A stretch of 64,000 nt of DNA from the NCBI RefSeq assembly GCF_017355525.1, contig NZ_CP067395.1, forward strand, positions 1,426,001 through 1,490,000, in the 5' to 3' direction. Position 1 is the stretch's first letter; each line of letters starts with the position of its first letter. Shown one piece after another: positions 1,214 to 24,048 of this stretch. The notes under the pieces were generated by a model. It was not told the DNA's origin and did no database searches. It saw only the letters and a list, made by a program, of their open reading frames with translations. A program made the position numbers and the translations under genes. Origin of the DNA: Lysobacter enzymogenes. GTDB lineage: Bacteria; Pseudomonadota; Gammaproteobacteria; Xanthomonadales; Xanthomonadaceae.

Positions 1214-2026
1214 ATGACCAGCCAAAGCGAACGCGCCGAACGATTCCGCCGACTGCACGCCGACGGCCTGCTGCTGCTCGCCAACGCCTGGGACGCCGGC
1301 AGCGCGCGCCTGATCGAGAGCCTCGGCGCGCAGGCGGTGGCGACCACCAGCGCCGGCGTGGCCTGGGCGCACGGCTTCGCCGACGGCGACCGGCTGCCGG
1401 TGCCGCGCCTGATCGCCACCGTCGCCGATATCGCGCGCGCGGTGCGGGTGCCGCTGAGCGTGGACATGGAAGGCGGTTATTCCGACGATCCCGACACCGT
1501 CGCCGACCATGTCGCCGGCGCGATCGACGTCGGCGCGGTCGGCATCAACCTCGAAGACGGCGGCGGCGCGCCGGACGCGCTGTGCGCCAAGATCGAACGG
1601 ATCAAGCGCGCGGCGGCGCGGTTGGGCGCGGACGTGTTCGTCAACGCGCGCACCGACGTCTACCTGCGCGGCCTGGTTCCGCCCGAACGGCGGGTCGAGG
1701 AAACCCTGGCGCGCGCCGCGCGCTACCGCGCAGCCGGCGCCGACGGATTGTTCGTGCCCGGGCTGACCGACGAAACCCAGGTGCGCGCGATCGCCGCCGG
1801 CGGCGGCCTGCCGCTGAACCTGCTCGCCCGCGCCGCGCTGCCGCCGGCCGCGCGACTGCGCGACTGGGGCGTGCGCCGGCTCAGCGCCGGCTCCGATCTG
1901 GCCCAGTCGGCGCACGCGCGCGTGCGCAGCCTCGCCGCAGGTTTCCTGCACGACGGCGACAGCAAGCCGCTGGCGGCCGAGGCGATGGCGTATACCGAAC
2001 TCAATGCGTTGTTCGAGCCGCGTTGA
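1214..2026 (+). CDS. Isocitrate lyase/PEP mutase family protein
   Basis: This 270-residue protein belongs to the isocitrate lyase/phosphoenolpyruvate mutase TIM-barrel superfamily. Signatures are LLLLANAWDAGSARL near residue 17, the SVDMEGGY metal-binding region around residue 80, and GINLEDGG around residue 109. A later VNARTDVY segment fits the barrel. Members make or break C-C or C-P bonds in 2-oxo acids, but the substrate of this COG2513-like subgroup cannot be read from sequence. The start at 1214 (MTSQSE) has an AGGA box about 8 bases upstream; an in-frame ATG at 1199 is less likely. It stands alone and is followed by a tandem repeat array. Confidence 0.8.
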   Translation: MTSQSERAERFRRLHADGLLLLANAWDAGSARLIESLGAQAVATTSAGVAWAHGFADGDRLPVPRLIATVADIARAVRVPLSVDMEGGYSDDPDTVADHVAGAIDVGAVGINLEDGGGAPDALCAKIERIKRAAARLGADVFVNARTDVYLRGLVPPERRVEETLARAARYRAAGADGLFVPGLTDETQVRAIAAGGGLPLNLLARAALPPAARLRDWGVRRLSAGSDLAQSAHARVRSLAAGFLHDGDSKPLAAEAMAYTELNALFEPR

Positions 2027-3326: not shown

Positions 3327-6300
3327 ATGTCCCGATTCGAACCCACCTCCCCGTTGAATCCCGCCGCGGCGGGCCACGACGCCGCGCACGAGCGCGCCGC
3401 GTTCGCCGGCCTGCAGCACCGGTTCGAACGTCACGCGCAGCGCCGTCCCGACGCGATCGCCCTGGTCCACGACGGCCGGCGCATGCGCTACGGCGAACTC
3501 AACGCGCGCGCCAACCGGCTGGCGCAGCGACTCATCGATGCCGGCGCCGGCCCCGACGGTCTGGTCGCGCTGTGCGTGCAGCGCGGCTTCGCCCTGCCGG
3601 TGGCGGTGCTGGCGGTGCTCAAGGCCGGCGGCGCGTACGTACCGTTCGATCCCGACTATGCCTCGGCGCGGCTCGCGGCGATGCTGGCCGACGCCGCGCC
3701 GCCGATCGCGCTGTGCGACGAGGCCGGCCGCGCCGCGCTCGGCGCGCACGCGCTGGCCTCGCTGCGCGTGCTCGATCCGCTGGCCGATTCGACCTGCGAT
3801 CCGGCCTGCGATCCGGACGGCGGCGACGAACGCGTCTGGGCCGCGCGCGACCCGCAGGTGGCCGGATTGCGCCCGCATCATCTGGCCTATGTGATCTACA
3901 CCTCCGGCTCCACCGGCGCGCCGAAGGGCGTGATGGTCGAACACCGCAACCTGATCCACCTGTGCGCGACCGAAACCGCGCGCCTGGGCATCGACGCCGA
4001 CAGCCGCATCGCCCAGTTCGCCTCGCCGGGCTTCGACGCCAGCGTGCTGGAACTGACGATGGCGCTGGCCCACGGCGCGCAACTGCATCTGGCCGCTGCG
4101 GCGCAGCGCGCCAGCGCCGAAGCGTTCAACCGATGGTTCGAGGACGAAGGCCTGACCCACGCGTTGTTGCCGCCGGCGTTCCTGCAAGGACGCGCGCTGC
4201 GCTTCGGCCGACGGCCGGTGCTGATCCTCGGCGGCGAGGCGCCCGGCCCCGCGCTGGTGCGCGAACTGGCCGCGCAGGCGACCGTGGTCAACGCCTACGG
4301 CCCGACCGAGATCACCGTGTGCGCGACGCAATGGATCGCCCCGGAGTCCGCCGCCGTCGGCGACGCGCCGGTGCCGATCGGACGCGCGCTCGCCGGCACC
4401 CGCGTGTACCTGCTCGATGCCGACGGCCGGCCGGTGGCGCGCGGCGAAACCGGCGAGATCCACATCGGCGGCGGCGGCGTGGCGCGCGGTTATCTGGGCC
4501 AGCCCGAACTCAGCGCCGGGCGCTTTCTCGCCGATCCTTTCGCCGCCGAGGACGGCGCGCGCATGTACCGCAGCGGCGATCTGGCGCGCGAACTCGACGA
4601 CGGCGCGCTGCTGTTCCTCGGCCGCAACGACGATCAGATCAAGCTGCGCGGCTACCGCATCGAACTCGGCGAAATCCAGGCGCGCCTGGACGAGCATCCG
4701 CAGGTGCGCGAATGCGCGGTGCTGGCGCGCGAGGACGGCGCGGGCGAGCCGCAGTTGCTCGCCTACTACGCCGGCGCGGCCGCGCCGGCGGCGTTGCGCG
4801 CGTTCCTGGCCGAACGCCTGCCCGGCTACATGCTGCCGGCCGCGTACGTGGCGCTGCCGACGCTGCCGCTGACCGGCAACGGCAAGCTCGATCGCGCCGC
4901 CCTGCCCGCGCCCGCCGACGGCGACCGCGCGCGCGCCGATTACCGGCCGGCGCAAGGCGCGGACGAACGCGCGCTGGCGCAGTTGTGGTGCGAGTTGCTC
5001 GGCGTCGGACGGGTCGGCCGCGACGACGACTTCTTCGCCCTCGGCGGCCATTCGCTGACCGCCGCGCGGCTGCGCGTGCGGCTGCGCGAACGCGACGGAG
5101 TCGAATTGCCGACCGCGGCGCTGTTCGATCATCCGACCCTGGCCGCGCTGGCGGCGCAGATCGGGCATCTGCGCGCGCACGACGCCGGCGCGCCGCCGCT
5201 GCCGCCGATCGAACCGGCGCCGCGCGGGGCGACGCTGGCGGTCTCGCACGCGCAGCAGCGCCTGTGGTTCCTGCACCAGCTCGAGCCGGGCGAGGTGCGC
5301 TACAACATGCCGCTGCGCCTGGAGCTGGACGGCGAGCTCGACCTCGCCGCGCTGCGCCGCGCGCTCGACGCGGTCTACGCGCGCCATGAGGCGCTGCGTA
5401 CGGTGTTCGCGGCGCAAGACGGCGAGGTCCGCGCGAGGCTGCTGCCGGCGGCGTCCGGCTTGCGCTTGTGCGAACACGATCTGCGCGGGCTGGACGATCA
5501 CGCGGCGCGGTTGCGCGAACTGTGCGAAGTCGACGCGCGCACGCCGTTCGATCTGGCCGCGGGGCCGCCGATCCGCGCGCGCCTGATCCGCACCGGCGAA
5601 TGCCGCCACGTGCTGATGCTGACCCAGCACCACATCGCCTGCGACGGTTGGTCGCTGCACCTGCTCGGCCGCGAACTCGGCGCCCTGTACGCGGCGGCGC
5701 GCGCCGGCGAGGCCGATCCACTGCCGCCGCTGCGCGTGCAATACCCCGACTACGCCGCCTGGGAGCAGCGCTGGCTGCACGGCGAGCGTCTGGCGCCGCA
5801 GGCGGAGTACTGGCGCGCGACCCTGGCCGGCGCACCCGGGCTGCTGGCGCTGCCGACCGATCGCCCGCGCCCGCCGCGGCCCGCGCACGCCGCCGGCGCG
5901 CTGCCGCTGCGGGTGGATGCGGCGCGGGTCGAACGCCTGCAACGGCTGTGCCGCGACCACGGATGCAGCTTGTTCATGGCCGTGGCCGCGGCCTGGTCGC
6001 TGGTGCTGGCGCGCCTGTCCGGGCAAGACGAAGTGGTGATCGGCACGCCCTCGGCCAATCGCGAGCGCGCCGAGATCGAACCGCTGCTGGGTTTCTTCGT
6101 CAACACCCTGGCCTTGCGCGTGGACTTCGCCGACGAACCCGACACCGCGCGCCTGCTGCAACGCGTACGCGCCGCCGCGCTCGGCGCGCAGGCGCACCAG
6201 GACCTGCCGTTCGAGCAAGTGGTGGAACTGGCCCAACCCGAGCGCCGGGTCGACCGCACGCCGCTGTTCCAGGCGCTGCTGGCCTGGCAGAGCAACGAAA

Positions 6301-9300
6301 CCGGGCGCTTCGAGTTGCCCGGCCTGAGCGTGCGCGCGAGCCAGCCGTTCGCCGCGGTGCGCTTCGAACTGGAACTGCACGTGCGCGAGCACGACGGCGA
6401 GCTGATCGGCGAACTCGGCTACGCCAGCGAGCTGTTCGACGCGGCCACCATCGAGCGCCAGCTCGGCGGCCTGCACGCGGCGCTGGACGCGATGTGCGCG
6501 CAGCCCTCGCTGGCGGCGACGCGGATCGACCTGCTCGACGCGGCGCAACGCGCGCACGTGCTCGGCCCGCTTGGGCGCGGCGAACCCGAGGCGGACGCCG
6601 CTGCGCCCGAGTGCGTGCACCGGCTGTTCGAGCGGCAGGCCCGCGCGACCCCGCACGCGACCGCGCTGATCCACGGCGAGCGGCGCATGGACTATGCCGA
6701 ACTCGACGCCCGCGCCGAACGCCTCGCGCGGCGGCTGCGCCGCTGCGGCGCCGGCGCCGACGAACGCATCGGCCTGTGCGCGCAGCGCGGCTTCGGCGTA
6801 GCGGTCGGCGCGCTGGCCGCGCTCAAGGCCGGCGCCGCCTACGTGCCGCTCGACCTGAGCCATCCGCGCGAGCGTCTGGCCCAGGTGCTCGCCGACGCCG
6901 CGCCGGTGGCGCTGCTGGCCGACGGCGCCGGACGCGAGGCGCTGGCCGGCGCCGTGCCCGGCGGCGCGCGCGTGCTGGACCTGGACGCGTACGCGTTCGG
7001 TCCGCTCGACGCGACCGAAAAGGACGCCGCCGGCGATCCGCCGCACGCCGGACCGGGCCCCGAACATCCGCACCCCGAAGGCCTGCACCCCGAAGGCCCG
7101 CGCCCCGAACATCTGGCCTACGTCATCTACACCTCCGGCTCCACCGGCGCGCCCAAAGGCGTGACGATGCCGCATGCGCCGCTGGCGCAACTGCTGCATT
7201 GGCAGCGCAGCGCGCTGGCGCCGGCGCGGCGGGTGCTGCAGTTCGCCGCGACCGGCTTCGACGTGGCGTTCCAGGAAATCTTCGGCGCCCTGTGCAGCGG
7301 CGCGGCGCTGGTGTTGATCGACGCGCCGCAGCGCCTGGACATGGCCGCGCTGCCGGCGCTGCTCGGCGCGCACGAGGTCGATCGCCTGCATCTGCCCTAC
7401 ATCGCCGCGCAAAGTCTCGCCGAAGCGATCGAGGACTGCGACGACGCGGCGCTGGCCGGAGTGCGCGCGCATTTGCGCGAAGTGATCGTCGCCGGCGAGC
7501 AACTGCGGCTCACGCCGCAACTGCGGCGGATGCTGCGGCGCCTGCCCGACTGCCGCCTGCACAACCACTACGGCCCGACCGAAACCCATGTCGCGGTCGC
7601 CTGCGCGCTCGGCCCCGACCTCGACGCCGAGCCCGACCATGCGCCGATCGGCCGGCCGATTTCCGGCAGCCGCGTCTACCTGCTCGACCGCCACCGCCAG
7701 CCGGTCCCGCGCGGCGCGGCCGGCGAGCTGTATCTGGCCGGGGCCTGCGTGGCGCGCGGTTATCTGCGCCGGCCCGGGCTCGAAGCCGAACGCTTCCTCG
7801 CCGATCCCTTCGCCGGCGGCGCCGCGCGCATGTACCGCACCGGCGACCTGGCCCGCTTCCGCGCCGACGGCCGCCTCGAGTTCCTCGGCCGCAACGACCA
7901 GCAGATCAAGATCCGCGGTTTCCGCATCGAACCGGGCGAAATCGAAGCGCGTCTGGCCGAGCATCCGCAGGTGCGCGAATGCGCGGTCATCGCGCGCGAA
8001 CGGCCCGACGGCCAGACCGCGCTGGTGGCTTACGCCGCGCCCGCCTGCACGGTCGGCGCCGACTGGCCGGCGGCGCTGCGCGCGCATCTGGCCGCGCGCC
8101 TGCCCGATTACATGCTGCCGTCGGCGTTCGTAACGGTGACGGCGCTGCCGGCGACGGCCAACGGCAAACTCGACGCCCGCGCCCTGCCCGCGCCGGATCC
8201 GTCCGCGTTCGCGCACGCCGCGTTCGAGGCCGCGCGCGGCGCCACCGAAACCACGCTGGCGCGGTTGTGGCAGGAACTGCTCGGCGTGGCCCGGGTCGGC
8301 CGCGGCGACCATTTCTTCGACCTCGGCGGGCATTCGCTGATCGCGGTGCGGCTGCTCAGCCGGATCGGCCGCGCGTTCGCGATCGAGCTGCCGCTGGCCG
8401 AGTTGTTCGCGCGCCCGCGCCTGGCCGATCTGGCCGCGGCCATCGACGCGCTGGCGGCGCGAACCGACGGCGGCGCGGCCGCGCCGATGCGGCCGCGCGA
8501 ACCCGGCGACGACGACGGCGCGCTGCCGCTGTCGCCGGCGCAGCAGCGCTTGTGGTTCCTCTCGCAGTTCGACGGCAACGGCGCCAACTACCACATCCCG
8601 CTGGCCCTGCGCCTGCGCGGCGCGCTCGATGCCGCCGCCCTGCGCCGCGCGCTGGATCGGGTGTTCGCCCGCCACGAAGGCCTGCGCAGCGTGTTCGTCG
8701 ACCGATCCGGCGCGCCGCATGCGCGCCTGCTCGACCCCGACAGCGGCATCGACTGGGCGCAGTGCGACCTGCGCGGCGACGACGACGGCGAGGCCCGGCT
8801 GCGCGAACGCATGGACCAGGCCGCGGACGCGCCGTTCGATCTGCAACGCGGGCCGCTGCTGCGCGCGCGCCTGTTCCGCCTGCGCGACGACGAGCACGTG
8901 TTGTCGCTGGTGGCGCACCACATCGTCGCCGACGGCTGGTCGCTGGGCGTGCTGATGGACGAGCTCGGCGCGCTCTACGCCGCGTTCGCCGCCGGCGCCG
9001 CCGATCCGCTGCCGCCGCTGCCGCTGCAATACCCCGACGTCGCGATCTGGCAGCGCCGCCACCTCGACCCCGCGCGCCTGCGCGCGCAGGCCGACTATTG
9101 GCGCGGCGCGCTGGCCGATGCGCCGGCGCTGCTGGAACTGCCGGCGGACCGGCCGCGGCCGGCGCAGCAATCCTTCGCCGCCGGCTTCGTGCCGCTGCGC
9201 CTGGACGCCGCGCTGACCGCCGCGCTCAAGCGCTGCGGCCAGCGCCACGGCGCGACCTTGTTCATGACCTTGCTGGCGGCGTGGAGCGCGGTGCTGGCGC

Positions 9301-12300
9301 GAGTGTCGGGCCAGGACGACCTCGTCGTCGGCGCCGCCACCGGCGGCCGCAACCGCCACGAAACCCAGACGCTGATCGGCTTTTTCGTCAACACCCTGGC
9401 GCTGCGCATCGATCTGTCCGGCGCGCCCGACGCGGCCGCGCTGCTGGCGCGCGTGCGCGCGGCCGCGCTCGATGCGCAGGCGCACCAGGACCTGCCGTTC
9501 GAACAAGTGGTCGACGCGCTGCAACTGCCGCGCCGGCTCGACCGCACGCCGCTGTTCCAGGCCATGTTCGCCTGGCAAAACGAGGAAGACCCGGTGCCGC
9601 GCCTGCCGGGGCTGGACGCGCGCGCCGAGCCGCTGCGCCTGCGCTGGACCAAGTTCGACCTCGAACTGGTGCTGGGCGAACGCGACGGCATCGTCGAAGG
9701 CGGGCTCAACTACGCCGCCGGCTTGTTCGACCGCGCCACCATCGAGCGCCATCGCGACTATCTGCTGGCCGCGCTGCGCGCGTTCGCCGCGCAAGACCCG
9801 GGCGCGGTGGCGCACTGGCCGCTGCTGCCGCCGCACGAGCGCGCGGCGCTGCTGCACGAACGCAACCGCGGCGAAGCCGCGTTCGACCGCGAGCAGTTGT
9901 TGGACGCGGCCTTCGCCCGTCAGGCCGCGCGCACGCCGCAGGCCGACGCGGTGGTCCACGCCGGCGCGCGGCTGAGCTACGCCGAACTCGATGCGCGCGC
10001 CAACCGTCTCGCCCATGCGCTGATCGAGCGCGGCGTCGGCCGCGGCGACCGGGTCGCGCTGGGCGCGCAACGCGGGTTCGGCCTGATCGCCGGCGTGCTC
10101 GCCATCCTCAAGGCCGGCGCGGTGTACCTGCCGTTCGACCCGGTCTATCCCTCGGCCCGGCTCGGCCGCATCCTCGCCGACGCCGCGCCGGCGCTGGCGC
10201 TGTGCGACGCTGCCGGCCGCGCCGCGCTGGACGCCGTCGCCGGCGACAGCGACGGCGCCGTCGCGCCGCCGCGCCTGCACCTGGACGACGAAGCGCTGTG
10301 GTCGCAAGGCGTCGCGTACGCGCCGCAGGTGCCCGGCCGCAGCGGCGCGGACCTGGCCTACCTGATCTACACCTCCGGCTCCACCGGCGCGCCCAAGGGC
10401 GTGATGGTGGAACACCGCAACGCGGCGCAACTGGCCGCGGCGCAAGTGCGGCGCTTCCGCCTGGGCCGACGCAGCCGGGTGCTGCAATTCAATTCGATCG
10501 GTTTCGACGCCAGCGTGTTCGACCTGCTGATGGCGTTCGTGCGCGGCGGCGCGCTGTATCTGCCGGAACCGGCCGAGCGCGCGTCGGCGCAGGCGGCGAT
10601 GGCGTTCGTGCGCCGCCACCGCATCACCCACGCGACCCTGCCGCCGGCGCTGTTGCAAGGCCAGCCGGTGCCGCGCTTCGAGCACCGTCCGACGCTGCTG
10701 TTCGGCGGCGAGGCGCCGAATCCGGCGCTGATGCGCGCGCTGTCGGCGCATGCGCGCGTGGTCAACGCCTACGGCCCGACCGAAACCACGGTCTGCGCCA
10801 GCGCCTGGACCGCGCCGCGCGATTTCGCCCAGGCGCCCGACGCGCCGCTGCCGATCGGCCGGCCGCTGGCCAACGTGCGCCTGTACCTGCTCGACGCGCA
10901 GCGGCAACCGGTGCCGACCGGATCGGTCGGCGAGCTGTACATCGGCGGCGCCGGCGTGGCGCGCGGCTATTTCGGCCGTCCCGACCTGACCGCCGAACGT
11001 TTTCTCGACGATCCCTTCGATCCGCGGCCGGGCGCGCGCATGTACCGCAGCGGCGATCTGGCCCGCTATCTGTCCGACGGCGAACTGCTGTTCCTCGGCC
11101 GCAACGACGAACAGATCAAGCTGCGCGGCTTCCGCATCGAACCGGGCGAGATCCAGGCGCGGCTGAGCGAACATCCGGCGGTGCGCGATTGCGCGGTGAT
11201 CGCGCGCGAGGACCGCGCCGGCGAGCCGTATCTGGCCGCGTATCTGGTCGCCGACCGCACCCACCCCGCCGCGCAGGGCGAGGACGCGCTCGCCGCGACC
11301 TTGCGCGCGTTCCTGGCCGAACGCCTGCCCGACTACATGCGCCCGACCGCGTTCGTACGCATCGACGCGCTGCCGCTGACCGCGCACGGCAAGCTCGACC
11401 GGCGCGCATTGCCCGCCCCCGGCGGCGACGACTTCGCCCACGCCGCCTACCAACCGCCGCAGCCCGGCGAGGAACGGCGGCTGGCGGCGCTGTGGCGGGA
11501 ACTGCTGGGCGTGGAGCGGGTCGGCCGCCACGACGATTTCTTCGAACTCGGCGGCCATTCGCTGCGCGCGGTGCAATTGGCCGCGCGGCTGGGCGAAGAA
11601 TTCGACGCGCAGGTGCCGGTGCGCGAACTGTTCGCGCATTCGCGCCTGGACCGGATGGCCGCGCTGCTGCATGCGCACGCCGGCGCGGCGGTCGGCGACG
11701 CGGCGTTCGACGGCGTGGCGGCCGACGGCGCGGACCTGGACGCCGAAGCGGCGCTCGACCCGGCCATCGACGGCGCCGGGCTACGCGCGGCGGCGGCAGC
11801 CGCGGATTGCCGCGAGCTGTTGCTGACCGGCGCCACCGGCTTCCTCGGCGCGTTCTTGTTGCAGGCCTTGTTGCAGGCCACTTCGGCGCGCGTGCACTGT
11901 CTGGTGCGCTGCGCCGACCCGGCCGACGGCCGGCGCCGTCTCGAAACCGCGCTGGCCGCGCTCGGTCTCGACGGCGTCGCCGACCCGGCGCGGGTCGCGA
12001 TCGTGCCGGGCGATCTGGCCCAGCCGCGGCTGGGCTTGAGCGAGTCGGGATTCGATGCGCTGTCCGAACGCATCGACGCGATCTACCACAACGGCGCCTG
12101 GGTCAATTCGCTGCACGGCTACGCCGCGCTCAAGCCGGCCAACGTCGGCGGCACGATCGAGGTCATGCGCCTGGCCGCGCGGACGCGGCGCAAGCACGTG
12201 CACTACGTTTCGACCCTGAGCACCGTGCCCGCGCCCGCGCAGGTGCGCGCGCTGGGCGCGCCTGCCGGCGACGAGGAAGCGCTGGCGCGGTGCTGGCGCG

Positions 12301-12896
12301 CGCTCGGCAGCGGCTACGCACGCAGCAAATGGGTGGCCGAACGGCTGCTGCGCGCCGGCGGCGAGCGCGGGCTGCCGTTCACCGTCTACCGTCCGACCCA
12401 CATCGCCGGCGCCGGCGGCGACGGCGCCTGCAACCTCAGCGACGCCTGGAGCCTGTTCGTGCAGGCGTGCTACCGGCTCGGCAACGCGCCGGACATCGAC
12501 CTGCGCATGAACTCGCTGGCGGTGGACCGCATGGCCGCGGCGATCGTCGAGCTGTCGCTGCGCGGCGACAGCGACGGCCGCAGCTTCAACCTCGCCGACC
12601 CGCACGGGTACCGGTTGGCCGACTGGATCGATTGCGCGTTGGAACAAACCGGCATGGCCGCGGCCAAGCGTCCGTACCCGCAGTGGTTGCGCGATTGCGC
12701 GGCGCACCCGGCGACTGCGGCGATCGCCTCGATCCTGCCGCCCGAGCTGAGCCCGCACGCCGACGCGGACGGCGAACCCGAGCAAAGCCCGATCGCCAAT
12801 GCCGTGGCCGAACGGCTCGATCCGGCGCGCTTCCCCGCTCTCGATCGCGACCACCTGCGCCGCTGCGCGCAGTGGTTGCGCCGCCACTGCGACTGA
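3327..12896 (+). CDS. Three-module NRPS with terminal reductase (A-T-C-A-T-C-A-T-R)
   Basis: This 3189-residue synthetase starts directly with an adenylation domain, so module 1 is a loading module. Approximate domains are A1 30-525 (YTSGSTG at 191), T1 (GGHS serine 576), C1 632-1065 (HHIACDG at 768), A2 1090-1615 (YTSGSTG at 1268) and T2 (Ser1670). They continue with C2 1730-2165 (HHIVADG at 1864), A3 2185-2705 (YTSGSTG at 2348), T3 (Ser2745) and R 2825-3189. The R domain has TGATGFLG at 2834 and Y2997-xxx-K3001, as in NAD(P)H thioester reductases that release aldehydes or alcohols. My hand-read specificity codes are A1 D-A-L-L-I-G-A-V-C, A2 D-V-Q-H-I-A-H-V-A (proline-like) and A3 D-A-F-T-L-G-A-V-C (unassigned, perhaps aromatic). 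There is no epimerase or MbtH. A GGAG box sits 12 bases before the ATG. Confidence 0.95.
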   Translation: MSRFEPTSPLNPAAAGHDAAHERAAFAGLQHRFERHAQRRPDAIALVHDGRRMRYGELNARANRLAQRLIDAGAGPDGLVALCVQRGFALPVAVLAVLKAGGAYVPFDPDYASARLAAMLADAAPPIALCDEAGRAALGAHALASLRVLDPLADSTCDPACDPDGGDERVWAARDPQVAGLRPHHLAYVIYTSGSTGAPKGVMVEHRNLIHLCATETARLGIDADSRIAQFASPGFDASVLELTMALAHGAQLHLAAAAQRASAEAFNRWFEDEGLTHALLPPAFLQGRALRFGRRPVLILGGEAPGPALVRELAAQATVVNAYGPTEITVCATQWIAPESAAVGDAPVPIGRALAGTRVYLLDADGRPVARGETGEIHIGGGGVARGYLGQPELSAGRFLADPFAAEDGARMYRSGDLARELDDGALLFLGRNDDQIKLRGYRIELGEIQARLDEHPQVRECAVLAREDGAGEPQLLAYYAGAAAPAALRAFLAERLPGYMLPAAYVALPTLPLTGNGKLDRAALPAPADGDRARADYRPAQGADERALAQLWCELLGVGRVGRDDDFFALGGHSLTAARLRVRLRERDGVELPTAALFDHPTLAALAAQIGHLRAHDAGAPPLPPIEPAPRGATLAVSHAQQRLWFLHQLEPGEVRYNMPLRLELDGELDLAALRRALDAVYARHEALRTVFAAQDGEVRARLLPAASGLRLCEHDLRGLDDHAARLRELCEVDARTPFDLAAGPPIRARLIRTGECRHVLMLTQHHIACDGWSLHLLGRELGALYAAARAGEADPLPPLRVQYPDYAAWEQRWLHGERLAPQAEYWRATLAGAPGLLALPTDRPRPPRPAHAAGALPLRVDAARVERLQRLCRDHGCSLFMAVAAAWSLVLARLSGQDEVVIGTPSANRERAEIEPLLGFFVNTLALRVDFADEPDTARLLQRVRAAALGAQAHQDLPFEQVVELAQPERRVDRTPLFQALLAWQSNETGRFELPGLSVRASQPFAAVRFELELHVREHDGELIGELGYASELFDAATIERQLGGLHAALDAMCAQPSLAATRIDLLDAAQRAHVLGPLGRGEPEADAAAPECVHRLFERQARATPHATALIHGERRMDYAELDARAERLARRLRRCGAGADERIGLCAQRGFGVAVGALAALKAGAAYVPLDLSHPRERLAQVLADAAPVALLADGAGREALAGAVPGGARVLDLDAYAFGPLDATEKDAAGDPPHAGPGPEHPHPEGLHPEGPRPEHLAYVIYTSGSTGAPKGVTMPHAPLAQLLHWQRSALAPARRVLQFAATGFDVAFQEIFGALCSGAALVLIDAPQRLDMAALPALLGAHEVDRLHLPYIAAQSLAEAIEDCDDAALAGVRAHLREVIVAGEQLRLTPQLRRMLRRLPDCRLHNHYGPTETHVAVACALGPDLDAEPDHAPIGRPISGSRVYLLDRHRQPVPRGAAGELYLAGACVARGYLRRPGLEAERFLADPFAGGAARMYRTGDLARFRADGRLEFLGRNDQQIKIRGFRIEPGEIEARLAEHPQVRECAVIARERPDGQTALVAYAAPACTVGADWPAALRAHLAARLPDYMLPSAFVTVTALPATANGKLDARALPAPDPSAFAHAAFEAARGATETTLARLWQELLGVARVGRGDHFFDLGGHSLIAVRLLSRIGRAFAIELPLAELFARPRLADLAAAIDALAARTDGGAAAPMRPREPGDDDGALPLSPAQQRLWFLSQFDGNGANYHIPLALRLRGALDAAALRRALDRVFARHEGLRSVFVDRSGAPHARLLDPDSGIDWAQCDLRGDDDGEARLRERMDQAADAPFDLQRGPLLRARLFRLRDDEHVLSLVAHHIVADGWSLGVLMDELGALYAAFAAGAADPLPPLPLQYPDVAIWQRRHLDPARLRAQADYWRGALADAPALLELPADRPRPAQQSFAAGFVPLRLDAALTAALKRCGQRHGATLFMTLLAAWSAVLARVSGQDDLVVGAATGGRNRHETQTLIGFFVNTLALRIDLSGAPDAAALLARVRAAALDAQAHQDLPFEQVVDALQLPRRLDRTPLFQAMFAWQNEEDPVPRLPGLDARAEPLRLRWTKFDLELVLGERDGIVEGGLNYAAGLFDRATIERHRDYLLAALRAFAAQDPGAVAHWPLLPPHERAALLHERNRGEAAFDREQLLDAAFARQAARTPQADAVVHAGARLSYAELDARANRLAHALIERGVGRGDRVALGAQRGFGLIAGVLAILKAGAVYLPFDPVYPSARLGRILADAAPALALCDAAGRAALDAVAGDSDGAVAPPRLHLDDEALWSQGVAYAPQVPGRSGADLAYLIYTSGSTGAPKGVMVEHRNAAQLAAAQVRRFRLGRRSRVLQFNSIGFDASVFDLLMAFVRGGALYLPEPAERASAQAAMAFVRRHRITHATLPPALLQGQPVPRFEHRPTLLFGGEAPNPALMRALSAHARVVNAYGPTETTVCASAWTAPRDFAQAPDAPLPIGRPLANVRLYLLDAQRQPVPTGSVGELYIGGAGVARGYFGRPDLTAERFLDDPFDPRPGARMYRSGDLARYLSDGELLFLGRNDEQIKLRGFRIEPGEIQARLSEHPAVRDCAVIAREDRAGEPYLAAYLVADRTHPAAQGEDALAATLRAFLAERLPDYMRPTAFVRIDALPLTAHGKLDRRALPAPGGDDFAHAAYQPPQPGEERRLAALWRELLGVERVGRHDDFFELGGHSLRAVQLAARLGEEFDAQVPVRELFAHSRLDRMAALLHAHAGAAVGDAAFDGVAADGADLDAEAALDPAIDGAGLRAAAAAADCRELLLTGATGFLGAFLLQALLQATSARVHCLVRCADPADGRRRLETALAALGLDGVADPARVAIVPGDLAQPRLGLSESGFDALSERIDAIYHNGAWVNSLHGYAALKPANVGGTIEVMRLAARTRRKHVHYVSTLSTVPAPAQVRALGAPAGDEEALARCWRALGSGYARSKWVAERLLRAGGERGLPFTVYRPTHIAGAGGDGACNLSDAWSLFVQACYRLGNAPDIDLRMNSLAVDRMAAAIVELSLRGDSDGRSFNLADPHGYRLADWIDCALEQTGMAAAKRPYPQWLRDCAAHPATAAIASILPPELSPHADADGEPEQSPIANAVAERLDPARFPALDRDHLRRCAQWLRRHCD

Positions 12897-12938
12897 TCCG
12901 CTGTCATTCCCCTTCCAACCACCGATCGTGACGACACC

Positions 12939-15677
12939 ATGGACGAGCTGCGTACGAATCCCAACCCGGCGCCCGCCGGCGCCACCCGCGCCGATCGCGG
13001 CGACGTTGCCGCCGGTGCGCCCGCACCGCGATGCGAAACCGACATCGTCGGGTTCGCGCACGGCGAATCCAGCCCGATGCGCGCCGAGACCGACGCGTCC
13101 GCGGCCGACGCAGCGCTGGCGTATTGGCGCCGCGCGCTGAGCGGCGCGCCGGCGCGGCTGGACTTGCCGACGCGGCAACCGCGCCCGGCGCAAGCGTGCA
13201 TCGACGGCGCGATGCTGCCGCTGCGGATCGACGCCGCGCTCGCCGACGCGCTGCGGCGGCGCGCGGACCGCGACGGCAGCGGTCTGTTCGCGCTGGTGCT
13301 GGCCGCGTGGGCGTTGGTGCTCTCCCGGCTTTCCGGCCAGGACGATATCGTCGTCGGCGCGTCCGACGCGCAGCGCGAACCGGCCGGCGGCCCGCCGCCC
13401 GACGAGGTCTGCGCCGACGCCCTGGCGCTGCGCATCGACCTGTCCGGCGATCCCGAAGCCGGCGAACTGATCGCCCGCGTCCGCCGCTGCGCGCTCGAAG
13501 CCCGGGATCGCGCGTTGCCGCTCGAGCGCGTGGCCGAAGCGCTGATCCCGCCGCACCGCGCCGACCGCGCGCCGCTGTTCCAGGCCCTGTTCGCCTGGCA
13601 GGACGGGCACGCCGCAGCTGCGACGCCGTCGGGCACCGACGCGTCGGCGCACAGCGCCGGACTCGATCTCGAACTTCGGCTCGGCGAACGCGACGGCGGC
13701 CTGACCGGCGGCTTGCGCTACGCCACCGCGTTGTTCGATGCCGCGATGATCGAACGCCACCGCGGCTACCTGCTCGCCGCGCTGCGCGCCTTCGCCGACG
13801 ACGTCGCCGGGCCGGCCGCCGGCATCGACCTGCTCGACGCCGACGAGCGCAGGCTGCAATTGCACGATTGGAACCGCACCGACGCCGACTATCCGCGCGA
13901 CGCCTGCTTCCACGCCTTGTTCGAACAGCAGGCGCGGCGCACGCCGGACGCGGCCGCGCTCGAACACGCCGGCGCCGCACTGAGCTACGCCGCGCTCGAC
14001 GCCGCCGGCAATCGTCTGGCCCGGCGCCTGCTCGCCGCCGGCGTGGCGCCCGACCGGCGCGTGGTCTTGTGCGCGCGGCGCGGCTTCGACGCGATCGTCG
14101 CGATCCTGGCCGTGCTCAAGGCCGGCGGCGCCTACGTGCCGCTGGATCCCGCCCACGTCAGCGCACGCAGCCTGCGCGTGCTCGCCGACGCCGCGCCGGT
14201 GTGCGTGCTGACCGATGCCGAAGGCGGCCGCGCCCTGGCGGCAGTCGGCGATATCGGCGCGTGGCCGCAGCTGACGATCGACGGTGCGGCAGCGGCGAGC
14301 GACGGCGACGCGGCGCCGCTGCGAACCGACGTCCGCCCCGAGCATCTGGCCTACATCGTCTACACCAGCGGCTCCACCGGCGAGCCCAAGGGCGCGATGA
14401 TCGAACACCGCAACCTGGTCCAGTTCGCCCACAGCCAGGCCGAACGCTTCGGCATCGGCGAACGCAGCCGGATCGGTCAGTTCGCGTCGCTAAGCTTCGA
14501 CGCCAGCCTGATCGAGATCGGCCTGAGCCTGATCCGTGGCGCGACGCTGTGCATCCCCAGCGAGCGCGAACGCGCCGACGCCGACGCGTACCTGGACTGG
14601 ATCGCGCGCGAACGCATCGGCTTGAGCTATATGCCGCCGGCGTTCCTGCAGGGACGCGATCGCTTCCCCGACTTCGCGGCCGCGCCGACGTTCCTGGTCG
14701 GCGGCGAAGCGGTGCCGCCGGGCCTGCTGAGCGCCTTGCGACGCGGCGGCGCGCGCCCGGTGAACGTGTACGGCCCGACCGAAACCACGGTGCTGGCCAC
14801 CGCCTGGGAACCGCCGCCGCACTGGCCCGGCGACGCGCCCACACCGATCGGCCGGCCGCTGGCCAACACCCGCGCCTATGTGCTCGACGCGCAGCGCCGG
14901 CCGTTGCCGCTGGGCGCGCCGGGCGAGCTGTATCTCGGCGGCGCCGGGGTCGCGCGCGGCTACCTCGGCCGCCCCGACCTCGACGCCCAACGCTATTTTC
15001 CCGATCCCTTCGACCCGGCGCCGGGCGCGCGCATGTACCGCAGCGGCGATCTGGTGCGCTATCGCGACGACGGCGAACTGATGTTCCTCGGCCGCAACGA
15101 CGGCCAGGTCAAGCTGCGCGGCTACCGCATCGAACTGGGCGAAATCGAAGCGCGCCTGCGCGAACACGCGGCGGTGCGCGAGGCCGCGGTGCTGCTGCGC
15201 GAGGACGAGCCCGGGCGTAAACGACTGGTGGCCTATGTGGTCGCCGCCGCGGCCGGCGAAGGCGAGCTCGCGACCGCGCTGCGCACGCATCTGATCCCGC
15301 GCCTGCCCGGCTACATGCTGCCGGCCGCGTACGTGCGCCTGGACGCGCTGCCGCTCAATCCGAACGGGAAGCTCGACCGCCGCGCCCTGCCCGCCCCCGG
15401 CGCCGATGCGTTCGCGCGCCGCGCTTACGCGCCGCCGCAAGGCGAGCTGGAAACCCTGCTCGCGCAGTGGTGGCAGGAGTTGCTGCACAGCGACCCGGTC
15501 GGCCGCGGCGACGACTTCTTCGAACTCGGCGGCCATTCGCTGCTGGCGATGCGGCTGCTCGCGCGCTTGCGCGAGGAACTCGGCGTGGCGGTGGCGCCGT
15601 CGCTGCTGTTCCGCCGCCCGCGCCTGGCCGGTTTCGCCGAGGCGCTGTTGGCCGCGGCCCTGCAGGATCACGACTGA
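12939..15677 (+). CDS. NRPS with half condensation domain (C-terminal lobe)-A-T
   Basis: This 912-residue protein starts 42 bases after the upstream NRPS stop. About 60 linker residues lead into condensation-domain sequence only from the YWRRALSGAP motif (Y62) onward, residues 62-295. The N-terminal lobe with the HHxxxDG catalytic motif is absent, and the 42-base gap cannot hold it. The A domain (310-815) has YTSGSTG at 475 and a complete core, and T has its phosphopantetheine serine at 867. The hand-read code is D-A-I-Y-L-G-V-V-L, which I cannot assign. Functionally this should be an initiation module with a vestigial or structural half-C. The short C-terminus could dock with the next NRPS. 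An assembly error removing about 600 bases is a less likely explanation. Confidence 0.92.
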   Translation: MDELRTNPNPAPAGATRADRGDVAAGAPAPRCETDIVGFAHGESSPMRAETDASAADAALAYWRRALSGAPARLDLPTRQPRPAQACIDGAMLPLRIDAALADALRRRADRDGSGLFALVLAAWALVLSRLSGQDDIVVGASDAQREPAGGPPPDEVCADALALRIDLSGDPEAGELIARVRRCALEARDRALPLERVAEALIPPHRADRAPLFQALFAWQDGHAAAATPSGTDASAHSAGLDLELRLGERDGGLTGGLRYATALFDAAMIERHRGYLLAALRAFADDVAGPAAGIDLLDADERRLQLHDWNRTDADYPRDACFHALFEQQARRTPDAAALEHAGAALSYAALDAAGNRLARRLLAAGVAPDRRVVLCARRGFDAIVAILAVLKAGGAYVPLDPAHVSARSLRVLADAAPVCVLTDAEGGRALAAVGDIGAWPQLTIDGAAAASDGDAAPLRTDVRPEHLAYIVYTSGSTGEPKGAMIEHRNLVQFAHSQAERFGIGERSRIGQFASLSFDASLIEIGLSLIRGATLCIPSERERADADAYLDWIARERIGLSYMPPAFLQGRDRFPDFAAAPTFLVGGEAVPPGLLSALRRGGARPVNVYGPTETTVLATAWEPPPHWPGDAPTPIGRPLANTRAYVLDAQRRPLPLGAPGELYLGGAGVARGYLGRPDLDAQRYFPDPFDPAPGARMYRSGDLVRYRDDGELMFLGRNDGQVKLRGYRIELGEIEARLREHAAVREAAVLLREDEPGRKRLVAYVVAAAAGEGELATALRTHLIPRLPGYMLPAAYVRLDALPLNPNGKLDRRALPAPGADAFARRAYAPPQGELETLLAQWWQELLHSDPVGRGDDFFELGGHSLLAMRLLARLREELGVAVAPSLLFRRPRLAGFAEALLAAALQDHD

Positions 15678-15687
15678 GGAACATGCC

Positions 15688-18600
15688 ATGACCTTGATCA
15701 AAGCCATCCTCGGCCGGCTCGATCCGGCGCAGATCGAACACCTGCGCGAACTGCGCCGCGAGCTCGGCCTGGACGCCGCCGGCACCGCCGAACCGGCGTT
15801 GGCGCCGCGCGCGCACGACGGCGACGCGCTGCCGATGTCGTCGGCGCAACAGCGGCTGTGGTTCCTGACCCAGCTGGACGGCGCAAGCGCCAGCTACCAC
15901 GTGCCCTTGGCCGTGCGTCTGCGCGGCGCGCTCGACCGCGCGGCGCTCGCGCGCGCGCTCGATGCGTTGTTCGCCCGCCAGCAGGCGCTGCGCAGCGTAT
16001 TTCCCGCGCGCGACGGCGAGCCGGTCGCGCAGTTGCTGCCGGCCGCGCACGGCCTGCCGCTGCGCGAGCGCGACCTGCGCGCAGGCGGCGATCCCGAGGT
16101 CGCCCGCGCGGCGCTTGCCGCTGCGGAACTGCACGCCCCGTTCGATCTCGCCGCCGGCCCGCTGGTGCGCGCCACGCTGTTCCGTCTGGGCGACGAGGAT
16201 TACGAACTGCTGCTGATCCAACACCACATCGTCTGCGACGGCTGGTCGATGGACGTGCTCGCGCGCGAACTCAGCGCGCTCTACAACGCGTTCGCCGCCG
16301 GCCGCGCCGATCCGCTGCCGCCGTTGGCCCTGCACTACTGCGATTACGCCGCCTGGCAGCGCGGCGGCGCCGACAGCCCGCGGCTGCGCGCGCAAAGCGA
16401 CTACTGGCAACAGCGTCTCGCCGGCGCGCCGCAGCGCCTGGAACTGCCCACCGACCGGCCGCGTCCGGCGCAGCAGTCCTTCGCCGCCGCGAGCGTGCCG
16501 CTGCGCCTGGACGCGCACGACACCGCCGCGCTCAAGCGGCGCGCCCGCAGCCGCGGCGCCAGCGCGTTCATGGCCGTGCTGGCGGCGTGGTCGGCGCTGC
16601 TCGCGCGCCTGTCCGGCCAGGACGAAGTCGTCGTCGGCACGCCCGCCGCCAATCGCAGCCAGGCCTTGCTGCAGCCGCTGATCGGTTTCTTCGTCAATAC
16701 CCTGGCCCTGCGCGTGGACGTGGCCGGCTGGGCCAGTCTGGGCGAATTGCTCGAACGCGCGCGCGACGCCGCGCTGGAAGCGCAGGACCGCCAGGATCTG
16801 CCGTTCGAGCGCGTGGTCGAGCGCTTGCAGCCGCAGCGCCGGCTCGACGCCACGCCGCTGTTCCAGGTCATGCTGGCCTGGCAGAGCAACGCGCCGCCGG
16901 TGTTCGCCTTCGACGGCGTGCGCGCCGATCCGCCGCGGCTGACCGGCGACACGCTCAGGGTCGACCTGGAACTGCATCTGCACGAGGACGACGACGGCAT
17001 CGTCGGCGAACTGCAGTACAGCACCGCGCTGTTCGACGCCGCCACCATGCGCCGCCACGTCGGTTATCTGCTGACCCTGCTGCGGGCGATGAGCGCCGAC
17101 GACAGCCGCGCGCCGGCGTCGGTGGAACTGCCGGATGCGGCCGAGCTCGCGTTGCAGTTGCACGAATTCAACCGCAGCGCCGCGGCGCCGGCGACGCACG
17201 AGGGCGTGCACCGCGCGTTCGAGCGGCAGGCCCGCGCCACGCCCGCGGCGATCGCGCTGGTCCACGGCGAGCAACGGCTCGACTACGCCGCGCTCGACCG
17301 CCTCGCCGAACGCCTGGCGGCGCGCCTGTGCGCGGCCGGCCTGGGCCGCGGCGGCATCGTCGCGTTGTGTTTGCAGCGCGGCATCGCGCCGGTGGTGGCG
17401 ATGCTGGCTACGCTCAAGGCCGGCGGCGCGTATTTGCCGCTGGATCCTGATTATCCACGCGAACGTCTCGGACGGATCCTCGCCGATGCCGGCGCGACGC
17501 TGCTGCTCGCCGACGAAGCCGGGCGCGACGCCTTGGCCGACTGCGGCGCGGCGCTGCCGCCGATGCTCGATCCGCACGACCGGGACTTCGCGGATGGCGC
17601 CATTGCCGACGACCGCTTCGGCGACGATCCCGAAGCGCCGGCCTACCTCATCTACACCTCCGGCTCCACCGGCGTACCCAAAGGCGTGCTGATGCCGCAC
17701 CGCCCCTTGCTCAACCTGCTGCGCTGGCAGGCGCGCACGCTGCCGCCGGCGCAAACCACGCTGCAATACGCCGCGCTCGGCTTCGACGTGGCGTTCCAGG
17801 AAATCTTCGGCTGCCTCGGCCAGGGCGGAACGCTGGTGCTGGTCGACGCGCCGCTGCGCTTCGATTTCCCCGCCCTGCTCGCGCAGCTGTGCGCGCAGCG
17901 GGTGCAGCGTCTGCATCTGCCGTACATCGCGCTGCAAGGGCTGGCCGAAGCCGTCGTCCAGTGCGATGCGGCGCAGGCGCAGGAACTCGACCGGCACTTG
18001 CGCGATGTCGCGGTGGCCGGCGAAGCGCTGCGGATCACTCCGCAGATCCGCCGCATGTTCGAACGGCTCGGCAGCGCGCGCCTGCACAATCATTACGGGC
18101 CCAGCGAAACCCACGTCGCTACCGCCCACACCTTGCCGCGCGAGCCCGCGCATTGGCCCGAGCTGCCGCCGATCGGCCAGCCGATCGACCGCGCGCGCGT
18201 CTACCTGCTCGATCCGCAGCGACGCCCGGTGCCGCTCGGCGCGGCCGGCGAGCTCTACATCGGCGGCGACGCGGTCGCGCAAGGCTATCGCGGCCAGCCG
18301 CAGCTTACGGCCGAACGCTTCCTCGCCGATCCCTTCGCCGCGACCGGCGACGACGCCGCGCCGCGCATGTACCGCAGCGGCGATCTGGCCCGCTACCGCA
18401 ACGACGGCAGCCTGCTGTTTCTCGGCCGCAACGACCGCCAGATCAAGATCCGCGGCTTCCGGGTCGAACCCGGCGAAATCGAAGCGCAGCTGGCCGGCCA
18501 GCCCGGCGTCGCCGAGACCGCGGTCGTCGCGCGCGAAGACCGGCCTGGCGAAACCCGTCTGGTCGCCTACGTGGTGCCGACCGATCCTTCGCTTCCGCAT

Positions 18601-20205
18601 GCGCAACTCGCCGCCGAACTGCGCGCCGCGGTCGCCGCGGCGCTGCCCGACTACATGCGGCCGGCGGCCTTCGTCGCCTTGCCGCGGCTGCCGCTGACGC
18701 CGAACGGCAAGCTCGACCGCGATGCGCTGCCGGCGCCGGACGGCAGCGATCTGGCCCGGCGCAGCGCGCAGCCGCCGCGGCCCGGCGCAGAAACCGAACT
18801 GGCGCAGATCTGGCGCGCCCTGCTCGGCGTCGAAGCGATCGGCCGCGACGATCACTTCTTCGAGCTCGGCGGGCACTCGCTGCTGGCCGCAAGGCTGGCC
18901 GCGCAACTGAGCCAGCGCGCGAACGCGCCGGTGCCGGTGCGTCAGGTGTTCCTGCGCCCGCTGCTGCGCGAGATGGCCGCGCTGCTGACATCGGCCGCGC
19001 CTGCGTCCGCGCATTCGCCGCTCGACCTCGCCGCCGAAGCGAGGCTGCCCGACGACCTGCGCGGCCACGGCCCGGCGCGCGCGCAGAGCGCACCGCAACG
19101 GGTGCTGCTGACCGGCGCCAACGGTTTCCTCGGCGCTTATCTCTTGCGCGAATTGCTGCGGCGCACGCCGGCGCGCGTGCACTGCCTGCTGCGTTGCGCC
19201 GATGCCGCGCAGGGCCGCCTGCGCCTGCGCAACGCGTTGAGCGCATTCGGCCTGGACGCGGACTGCGACCTCGATCGGATCGACATCGAACCCGGCGACC
19301 TCGCCGCGCCCGCGCTGGGTTTGACGCCCGAGCGCTTCGACGCGCTCGGCGAACGCCTCGACGCGATCTACCACAACGGGGCCTGGGTCCACTCGCTGCA
19401 TCCTTACCGCACGCTCAAGCCGGCCAATGTGCTCGGCACGCTGGAGGTGATGCGGCTGGCCGCGCGCGGCGCGCCGACCCGCGTGCACTACGTGTCCACC
19501 GTCGCCGCGCTGTCGCCGCGCGATCCGCTCGCGGACGCCGATCTCGACGAAGAAACGCTGCTCGCGCGCTGGCAAGGCCTGCGCACCGGTTACGCGCAAA
19601 GCAAATGGACCGCCGAACGGCTGCTGCGCGCCGGCGCCGCGCGCGGCCTGCCGTTCGCGGTGTACCGCCCCACCCACATCAGCGGCGACAGCGCCACCGC
19701 GCTCGGCAACGACCGCGACAGCTGGAGCCTGTTCGTCGACGCCTGCCTGCGCCACCGCTGCGTGCCGACGCTGGAGGCCGCGCTGAACTGGCTGCCGGTG
19801 GACTGGATGAGCGCGTTCCTGGTCGAGCTGTCGCTGCGCGAGGGCCTGGACGGACGCAGCCTCAACCTGATCCATCCGCATTCGTTCCCGTTCGCGCGCC
19901 TCGCCGACGCCATCGCCGCCAGCGACGGCGCGCGGGTGCGGCGGGTCGATTATCGCGACTGGCTCGCGCTCGTCGCCGCCGACCCGGCCAGCGCCGAGGT
20001 CGCCGCGGTGCTGTCGGCCGATGCGGCCGACGCGACCGGCGCGACCGGCGTAACCGCCGCGACCGCCGCGTTCGAAGATCCGCGCATCGGCAACGCCGTC
20101 GCCGAACTGATCGGGCAGGCGCGCTGCCCGCCGCTCGACGACGCGCTGCTGCGCGCCTACGTGGACGGCCGCAACCACGCGCTGGCTGCGCGCCGCGGGG
20201 GCTGA
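15688..20205 (+). CDS. NRPS elongation/termination module C-A-T-R
   Basis: This 1505-residue synthetase begins 10 bases after the previous stop, with a GAGGA box overlapping that stop. A short, partly helical N-terminal tail (residues 1-35) may be a docking element. Domains are C 50-485 (HHIVCDG at 179), A 505-1010 (YTSGSTG at 656), T (GGHS serine 1064) and R 1135-1505. The R domain has TGANGFLG at 1142 and Y1302-xxx-K1306. The A-domain code reads D-V-Q-H-A-A-H-V-A, very close to the second A domain of the first NRPS and to published proline codes. With the preceding half-C-A-T protein it resembles the two-protein A-T plus C-A-T-R design that makes dipeptide aldehydes, such as the NpsA/NpsB tilivalline system. 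It is convergent with a LysR gene. Confidence 0.95.
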   Translation: MTLIKAILGRLDPAQIEHLRELRRELGLDAAGTAEPALAPRAHDGDALPMSSAQQRLWFLTQLDGASASYHVPLAVRLRGALDRAALARALDALFARQQALRSVFPARDGEPVAQLLPAAHGLPLRERDLRAGGDPEVARAALAAAELHAPFDLAAGPLVRATLFRLGDEDYELLLIQHHIVCDGWSMDVLARELSALYNAFAAGRADPLPPLALHYCDYAAWQRGGADSPRLRAQSDYWQQRLAGAPQRLELPTDRPRPAQQSFAAASVPLRLDAHDTAALKRRARSRGASAFMAVLAAWSALLARLSGQDEVVVGTPAANRSQALLQPLIGFFVNTLALRVDVAGWASLGELLERARDAALEAQDRQDLPFERVVERLQPQRRLDATPLFQVMLAWQSNAPPVFAFDGVRADPPRLTGDTLRVDLELHLHEDDDGIVGELQYSTALFDAATMRRHVGYLLTLLRAMSADDSRAPASVELPDAAELALQLHEFNRSAAAPATHEGVHRAFERQARATPAAIALVHGEQRLDYAALDRLAERLAARLCAAGLGRGGIVALCLQRGIAPVVAMLATLKAGGAYLPLDPDYPRERLGRILADAGATLLLADEAGRDALADCGAALPPMLDPHDRDFADGAIADDRFGDDPEAPAYLIYTSGSTGVPKGVLMPHRPLLNLLRWQARTLPPAQTTLQYAALGFDVAFQEIFGCLGQGGTLVLVDAPLRFDFPALLAQLCAQRVQRLHLPYIALQGLAEAVVQCDAAQAQELDRHLRDVAVAGEALRITPQIRRMFERLGSARLHNHYGPSETHVATAHTLPREPAHWPELPPIGQPIDRARVYLLDPQRRPVPLGAAGELYIGGDAVAQGYRGQPQLTAERFLADPFAATGDDAAPRMYRSGDLARYRNDGSLLFLGRNDRQIKIRGFRVEPGEIEAQLAGQPGVAETAVVAREDRPGETRLVAYVVPTDPSLPHAQLAAELRAAVAAALPDYMRPAAFVALPRLPLTPNGKLDRDALPAPDGSDLARRSAQPPRPGAETELAQIWRALLGVEAIGRDDHFFELGGHSLLAARLAAQLSQRANAPVPVRQVFLRPLLREMAALLTSAAPASAHSPLDLAAEARLPDDLRGHGPARAQSAPQRVLLTGANGFLGAYLLRELLRRTPARVHCLLRCADAAQGRLRLRNALSAFGLDADCDLDRIDIEPGDLAAPALGLTPERFDALGERLDAIYHNGAWVHSLHPYRTLKPANVLGTLEVMRLAARGAPTRVHYVSTVAALSPRDPLADADLDEETLLARWQGLRTGYAQSKWTAERLLRAGAARGLPFAVYRPTHISGDSATALGNDRDSWSLFVDACLRHRCVPTLEAALNWLPVDWMSAFLVELSLREGLDGRSLNLIHPHSFPFARLADAIAASDGARVRRVDYRDWLALVAADPASAEVAAVLSADAADATGATGVTAATAAFEDPRIGNAVAELIGQARCPPLDDALLRAYVDGRNHALAARRGG

Positions 20206-20215
20206 GCGGCTTCGC

Positions 20216-21145
20216 TCAGGCCTGCGCGCGCAACCACGCCGCCAGCCGCGCCGCCGGCGAACCGGCGCGCGCCGGCGCCGGCGCCAGCAGGTAGTACGCG
20301 CTGCCGTCGGCGACGAAGCCCAGCGGCGCGGCCAGCACGCCGGATTCGACGTCGTCGCGCACCAGCTGCCACGGCCCGATCGCCGCGCCGACGCCGGCCG
20401 CGGCGGCCTGCAGGCTGAAGTAGAAATGCTCGAACGTCTGCGCCGTCGCCGCCGCGGGACGCTTGCGCCGCGCCGCGCGCGCCCAGTCGTCCCAGGCGCC
20501 GGCGCGGGTGGCGCTGTGCAGCAGGCAGGCGCCGGGCGCGAAGCGCGCGCTGCGGCCGCTGCCTTCGACGTGGGCGTCGCGATAGGCCGGGCTGCACACC
20601 GGGCCGACCCGTTCGTCGAACAAGTGCAGCGCGTGCACGCCGCGGCCCCAGGCGAAATCGTTGCGGCGGATCGCCAGGTCGACCTCGCCGAAGCCGACCG
20701 CGCCGCCGCCGGCCACCCATTGCAGGGCGATCTGCGGATGCGCGGCCTGGAACGCCGGCAGGCGCGGGATCAGCCAGCGCATCAGCAGGGTCGGTTCGCA
20801 CGACACCACCAGCGCCGGTTTGCGCGGCGGCTCGCGCAGTTCGCGCACGGTCGCGGCGAGCAGTTCGAACGCGCCGGCCGCGGCGTCGCGCAGGCGCTCG
20901 CCGGCTTGGGTCAGGTGGACGCGCTGGTTGCGGCGTTCGAACAACTGCACGCCGAGCGCGTCCTCGATCGAACGCACGGCGCGGCTGACCGCGCCGTGGG
21001 TCAGGTGCAGTTCCTGCGCGGCGCGGGTGAAGCCGCCCAGGCGCGCGGCCGCCTCGAAGCAGCGCAGCGCGCCCAGCGGCGGCAGCGCGGTCCGCGCGCG
21101 CCATGCGGGCAGTGAGTTTTGCTCACCATCGTCGTGAGAATCCAT
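20216..21145 (-). CDS. LysR-family regulator (GcvA-like)
   Basis: This 309-residue protein has an N-terminal winged helix-turn-helix at about residues 22-80, with LGALRCFEAAARLGGFTRAA and THGAVSRAVRSIEDALGVQL. A LysR substrate-binding domain follows. The PPLGALRCFEAAARL opening and the fold order resemble the GcvA/AmpR subgroup. It is divergent from the LysE-type exporter at 21211 and is the obvious candidate to control it. A perfect 9-bp inverted repeat lies between them. The effector is unknown and any link to the NRPS genes is speculative. Confidence 0.88.
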   Translation of the reverse strand: MDSHDDGEQNSLPAWRARTALPPLGALRCFEAAARLGGFTRAAQELHLTHGAVSRAVRSIEDALGVQLFERRNQRVHLTQAGERLRDAAAGAFELLAATVRELREPPRKPALVVSCEPTLLMRWLIPRLPAFQAAHPQIALQWVAGGGAVGFGEVDLAIRRNDFAWGRGVHALHLFDERVGPVCSPAYRDAHVEGSGRSARFAPGACLLHSATRAGAWDDWARAARRKRPAAATAQTFEHFYFSLQAAAAGVGAAIGPWQLVRDDVESGVLAAPLGFVADGSAYYLLAPAPARAGSPAARLAAWLRAQA

Positions 21146-23942: not shown

Positions 23943-24048
23943 GCATCCGTTTCCCGCAGCGCGCCTGCGCTCGCATCTCCCTTTCGTTTCCGCGCCGCCA
24001 CCGCGGCGCTCATCCCCGCGGCCCGTCCGCACCTTCAGGAGTACCACC

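Follow-up and report, generated by a model that had tools for sequence, protein, structure and literature searches.

The Le-pyrrolopyrazine (led) cluster family has already been described, and a cluster of this name is listed for Lysobacter enzymogenes CX03. According to the abstract of the founding paper, the cluster reportedly has six modules, which agrees with a distribution of three, two, and one modules over its genes. The available text of PMC12701797 likewise assigns three, two, and one modules to the NRPS genes of the described led cluster. LedA of this cluster is annotated as an isocitrate lyase, and in the available text of PMC10445470, an isocitrate lyase has LedA listed as its closest match. 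The led cluster paper (Li et al. 2017, Org. Lett. 19:5010) names a module/domain portable mechanism in its title, which may refer to cross-talk between assembly lines; in the accessible parts of the literature searched, the founding paper aside, we found no statement on which of the led modules are used. Table 1 of PMC9410377, a source available in part, contains a Le-pyrrolopyrazines region of the type "NRPS; RiPP-like" for the strains CX03, CX06, C3, and M497-1, with the locus tags JHW38_05710-05915 for CX03 and the printed coordinates 2,518,673-2,576,673. Since antiSMASH matches to Le-pyrrolopyrazine are also listed in excerpts of two papers for the other genera Pectobacterium and Serratia, the label alone can be loose.

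The window analyzed here comprises 64,000 nucleotides of a genome assembled as a single contig of 5,947,018 bases. Pfam and motif scans identified three co-directional NRPS genes with the domain order A-T-C-A-T-C-A-T-R / half-C-A-T / C-A-T-R, bearing out the layout given in the preliminary description; no internal stops occur across the three genes, and the intergenic gaps amount to 42 and 10 bp. Gene 1 (3327..12896, + strand, 3189 aa) combines three A domains with the codes DALLIGAVCK, DVQHIAHVAK (Pro-like), and DAFTLGAVCK (motif scan), three T domains with GGHSL at aa 573, 1667, and 2742, and two C domains with HHxxxDG at aa 768 and 1864. It ends in an R domain (11823..12545, +; PF07993, E = 2.3e-56) with intact TGATGFLG (aa 2834), YVST, and YxxSK motifs (GYARSKW at aa 2996), which would form the first release point. 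Gene 3 (15688..20205, +, 1505 aa) has the layout C-A-T-R, the C domain motif HHIVCDG, and the Pro-like code DVQHAAHVAK. Its R domain, the putative second release point (19108..19815, +; PF07993, E = 2.0e-56), has likewise retained TGANGFLG, YVST, and YxxSK (GYAQSKW). The start of gene 3 had been placed at 15406, i.e., inside gene 2; the ATG at 15688, located 10 bp past the gene 2 stop and preceded by a ribosome-site-like GAGG 8 bp upstream, is the likelier one. Both R domains are C-terminal and possess TGAxGFLG and YxxxK, as had been stated before, and both are predicted to release an aldehyde or alcohol. GGHSL is kept in all five T domains of the locus, and HHxxxDG in all three complete C domains; none was detected in gene 2 (motif scan).

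Gene 2 (12939..15677, +, 912 aa; Pfam) consists of the C-terminal lobe (C-lobe) of a condensation domain (13110..13853, +), an A domain with the code DAIYLGVVLK (13920..15371, +; PF00501, PF13193), and a T domain with intact GGHSL (15459..15647, +; PF00550, motif scan). The match to the Condensation profile (PF00668, 456 positions) begins only at position 193, extends to position 453, and is devoid of HHxxxDG. This is the layout of a C*-A-T loading module, in which an N-terminal C domain without its HHxxxDG half is followed by A and T, and gene 2 is predicted to load the first residue of a product.

For comparison, we used L. enzymogenes ATCC 29487 (G002), Lysobacter sp. yr284 (G004), and L. 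enzymogenes CX06 (G009), to which the window is linked by colinear DNA matches of 81-87% identity; the gene 1 orthologues are 81-85% identical. Judged against these relatives, the window shows the same succession of orthologous NRPS genes, preceded by a LedA-like gene, and two R domains are found in each of the four copies. All three relatives have the 3, 2, 1 arrangement of modules, in contrast to 3, 1, 1 in the window. Their gene 2 products comprise 1697, 1704, and 1715 aa (ATCC 29487, yr284, and CX06, respectively) and are organized as A-T-C-A-T, with two A domains, two T domains, and one complete C domain. As the window is without about 2.3 kb of this gene (A, T, and the N-lobe of C), its "half-C" is a deletion scar. 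The net loss of about 2.3 kb relative to ATCC 29487 left the reading frame intact. Colinearity with the relatives ends at approximately 12959-12989, in the first codons of gene 2, and restarts at 13110-13125 in the middle of C, leaving a junction zone at 12990..13109 (+). Residues 18-57 (approximately) of the window protein align poorly to the relatives, and a 16-nt exact match to ATCC 29487 within the N-lobe, at 13008-13023, may represent the right-hand edge of the break. In the relatives, the A domain missing from the window carries Pro-like codes, namely DVQHVAHVVK (ATCC 29487 and yr284) and DVQHIAHVVK (CX06); the code of the kept A domain is DAIYLGVVLK in all four copies. A hidden in-frame N-lobe upstream of gene 2 was ruled out, the open frame measuring 926 aa from stop to stop.

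By these sequence comparisons, the window locus is orthologous to the described led cluster and constitutes its L. enzymogenes CX03 form, shortened in gene 2. The CX03 tags in the table of PMC9410377, as far as its available text goes, presumably denote this locus, and the CX06 cluster core (2,538,558-2,558,044) falls inside the range printed there. The preliminary description knew of no described cluster with exactly this gene order and regarded a close match to a characterized cluster as evidence against its reading. Such a match exists at the family level, in the led cluster named for CX03 (PMC9410377, available in part); what stands of the claim is the module order, in which 3-1-1 differs from 3-2-1.

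In the Txo2 chain, the C-lobe remnant has its counterpart, by alignment, in residues 195-448. An AlphaFold2 model of the gene 2 protein, built from an input alignment of 27 rows with proteins picked from those retrieved, reached a mean pLDDT of 80 and had the C-A structures of Txo2 and Txo1 as its top solved-structure matches. Values below 50 were confined to residues 1-51, 145-159, and 224-237, of which the latter two stretches are loops in the C-lobe; the remaining C-lobe was mostly above 70. Because the remnant corresponds to Txo2 195-448 and is modelled mostly confidently, we assign the cut to the lobe boundary of the C domain.

A similar truncation was found outside the L. enzymogenes group. 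A protein search with window gene 2 scored 7989 candidates and found 3684, the best 120 of which were listed; truncation was inspected in P0012 and P0074 among the matches listed, which did not include the window protein itself, and truncated copies number at least two. P0012 (Pseudomonas sp. CGJS7, 864 aa) starts with MDDI like gene 2 of ATCC 29487 and then leads directly into the C-lobe. It shares the C-lobe-A-T layout with window gene 2 and has nearly the same code (DAIYFGVVLK), whereas P0148 (Lysobacter sp. CA199) has the A-T-C-A-T form of the three relatives; both are about 60% identical to window gene 2. In a tree of the shared C-lobe-A-T part, calculated from 12 rows picked from the matches (P0128, which has an R domain, was left out), window gene 2 falls together with three full-length rows of the L. 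enzymogenes type (98/97), and P0012 with full-length CA199 (95/97). Since the two truncated proteins are on separate branches, two independent losses are the simplest history, and the truncation probably arose twice independently. The tree does not favor a shared ancestry of both truncations: an intact ancestor requires two losses, a truncated ancestor more changes. The junctions lie about 10 residues apart (BLASTP alignments start at window residue 70 for P0012 vs. 52-59 for the three relatives), which argues weakly in the same direction. Two motifs of the C domain, which we take to be those called C5 and C6, are eroded in both remnants and kept in the three full-length rows aligned. Judging by its sequence, the CGJS7 gene probably also belongs to a led cluster. 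Its source is named Pseudomonas, yet in the tree it pairs with Lysobacter sp. CA199; a mislabeled genus or a transfer of the gene may account for this.

With P0012 as query (E 1e-250), matches were obtained in 5 of 395 family genomes (the source genome, the three relatives, and G090) and in 6 of 396 relatives (the same five and G551), the two sets overlapping; CGJS7 and CA199 were not among the matches in either set. Six loci were detected in a scan of genome contigs, two of them led copies. G090, which belongs to another genus, encodes a gene-1-like A-T-C-A-T-C-A-T-R protein with one R domain (L062 2406-12140), and genes 2 and 3 are absent from the 20 kb around it. The occurrence of such a gene without genes 2 and 3 in this stretch supports the view that gene 1 forms a separate line.

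Regarding the neighboring genes, a LedA-like protein of the PEP-mutase/isocitrate-lyase family is encoded at 1214..2026 (+; PF13714, E = 7e-71), and its DNA has been conserved in all three relatives, again ahead of the NRPS genes. Its presence qualifies the earlier statement that no thioesterase, MbtH, or tailoring enzyme is adjacent, the rest of which holds: PF00975 (thioesterase) had no match in the window, its 15 matches in the genome all lying outside, and PF03621 (MbtH) had none in the whole genome, with positive profile controls in E. coli and B. subtilis. A DUF4180 protein is encoded at 2263-2652 (-), in the interval that separates gene 1 from the LedA-like gene, and this DNA, too, is conserved in all three relatives. 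A LysR regulator (20216-21145, -) and a LysE-type exporter (21211-21831, +) lie immediately after gene 3; they are divergently oriented and may serve the NRPS cluster or be plain neighbors. A RiPP-type neighborhood including a DoxX protein follows on the 3' side (23226-26215, +). It contains an MbnB/TglH/ChrH (DUF692-type) RiPP enzyme gene at 24568-25437, 4.4 kb after gene 3, and beside it a DUF2063/NGO1945-type partner at 25277-26215; the "RiPP-like" label of the published table region fits with this enzyme gene adjoining the NRPS genes. Further away, at 54121-56286 (-), a 721-aa protein combines an N-terminal, R-like NAD_binding_4 domain with a C-terminal short-chain dehydrogenase, and open frames of 755-760 aa with an NAD_binding_4 domain occur in the three relatives as well. 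A far larger NRPS locus lies elsewhere in the genome (G000:C1:870000-908000); its open frames measure 9812 and 3889 aa, and the former ends in two thioesterase domains.

It is established chemistry that a dipeptide aldehyde with a free amine, once released by an R domain, forms an imine. From the orthology, the deletion, the intact motifs, and the missing catalytic half of C, all of which can be read from the sequence, we consider it likely that the locus is a led orthologue with a shortened gene 2 and two assembly lines side by side; activity, substrates, and products of both lines are predicted as follows. Gene 1 alone would build X-Pro-Z, and its R domain would free a tripeptide aldehyde (or alcohol). 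Gene 2 (C-lobe-A-T) would act as the loading module for one amino acid, which gene 3 would join to Pro, and the R domain of gene 3 would free an X-Pro-aldehyde. In the latter, the aldehyde could react with the amine of the same molecule, giving a six-membered cyclic imine joined to the Pro ring and hence the skeleton of a pyrrolopyrazine. In ATCC 29487, yr284, and CX06, the second line would begin with the extra Pro-like loading module and yield Pro-X-Pro. Proline is the probable substrate in the window by way of the code family DVQxxAHVxK. The available text of PMC9113097 lists DVQYIAHVVK and DVQYVAHVVK as Pro codes; compared with the first of these, the two Pro-like codes found in the window have two and three deviating residues among the ten.

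We calculated branch-specific dN/dS values by the Nei-Gojobori method from the window, ATCC 29487, and yr284 for 17 domain segments. The point estimates for gene 2 on the window branch were 0.99 for the C-lobe, 0.47 for A, and 0.14 for T, as compared to 0.48, 0.28, and 0.24 on the ATCC 29487 branch. The gene 2 C-lobe had the highest window-branch value of all 17 segments, followed by T3 of gene 1 (0.86, a short segment) and the C-lobe of gene 3 (0.51). Its dN was 0.131 (0.097-0.171) in the window vs. 0.087 (0.058-0.120) in ATCC 29487, the window being higher in 474 of 500 bootstraps; C-lobes of the complete domains in genes 1 and 3 had window-branch dN values of 0.032, 0.033, and 0.078. This pattern is moderate evidence for a C-lobe released from its catalytic role next to A and T domains that continue to be used. 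However, the C-lobe of the intact gene 2 in ATCC 29487 is also fast, the A domain of the window is somewhat faster too (dN above ATCC 29487 in 447 of 500 bootstraps), and the value of 0.86 for T3 of gene 1 weakens the contrast as well; the truncated gene 2 could be on its way to decay. A deletion that crippled the second line, with gene 2 decaying in CX03 and gene 1 alone still productive, would account for a C-lobe dN/dS that comes close to 1 in the window, for the terminal branch of window gene 2 (0.21, the longest of the 12 tree rows), and for the C5 and C6 motifs eroded in the alignment. It would not explain why gene 2 retains its frame, its start, its A and T motifs, and the substrate code of the three relatives, why the A and T point estimates are well below 1, why the C, A, T, and R motifs of gene 3 are intact, or why the truncated form survives in a second lineage (P0012), and we regard it as unlikely.

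The preliminary description had favored two release points and had offered, as an alternative, that the internal R domain is bypassed and the three genes together make one longer peptide. The co-directional orientation and the close spacing (gaps of 42 and 10 bp) would suit such a bypass, for which, however, no condensation domain was seen that could pass the gene 1 peptide onto gene 2. Because a complete N-terminal C domain is missing from gene 2 in all four copies, we consider a bypass very unlikely; gene 2 begins with A-T in the three relatives and is without the catalytic half of C in the window, and the 20 kb examined of G090 include a gene-1-like line but neither gene 2 nor gene 3. With gene 1 ending in R, two release points are supported. 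An assembly error that collapsed repeats is scarcely more probable as the cause of the short gene 2. NRPS modules are repetitive and the window represents one strain only, but the genome is a single contig, the frame is kept, and the junction joins non-equivalent sites (the gene start and mid C) instead of equivalent repeat positions.

Returning to two lines in operation, a wider proposal is made tentatively and with some doubt: within the led family, an elongation module may have been converted into a loading module at least two times by a cut at the lobe boundary, turning a second line for the tripeptide aldehyde Pro-X-Pro into one for the dipeptide aldehyde X-Pro, able to close to a pyrrolopyrazine, and leaving the kept C-lobe no role other than to support the A domain as a platform. 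The locus amounts to a module deletion made by nature, with full-length sister clusters at hand for comparison, and if gene 2 works, it lets one test which of the led modules really make pyrrolopyrazines. If the truncated gene 2 works, an elongation module can become a starter when cut between the C-domain lobes, and the lobe-boundary cut would be a practical rule for NRPS engineering.

A related arrangement is known from the thermoactinoamide synthetase ThdA. In the available text of PMC7253712, a truncated C domain ahead of its loading A-T is described as probably inactive, with a suggested influence on the selectivity of the A domain. A loading module behind a truncated C domain is what ThdA shares with window gene 2; it differs in that it belongs to another cluster, its product is a cyclohexapeptide, and the same text mentions no R domain. 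As far as the accessible literature searched shows, the 3-1-1 deletion form of the CX03 copy is new, as is the finding that a similar truncation arose elsewhere. With the described led cluster, as represented by the three relatives, the window shares the order of the NRPS genes, the LedA-like gene upstream, and the two R domains, and it differs in having 3-1-1 instead of 3-2-1 modules because of the deletion in gene 2.
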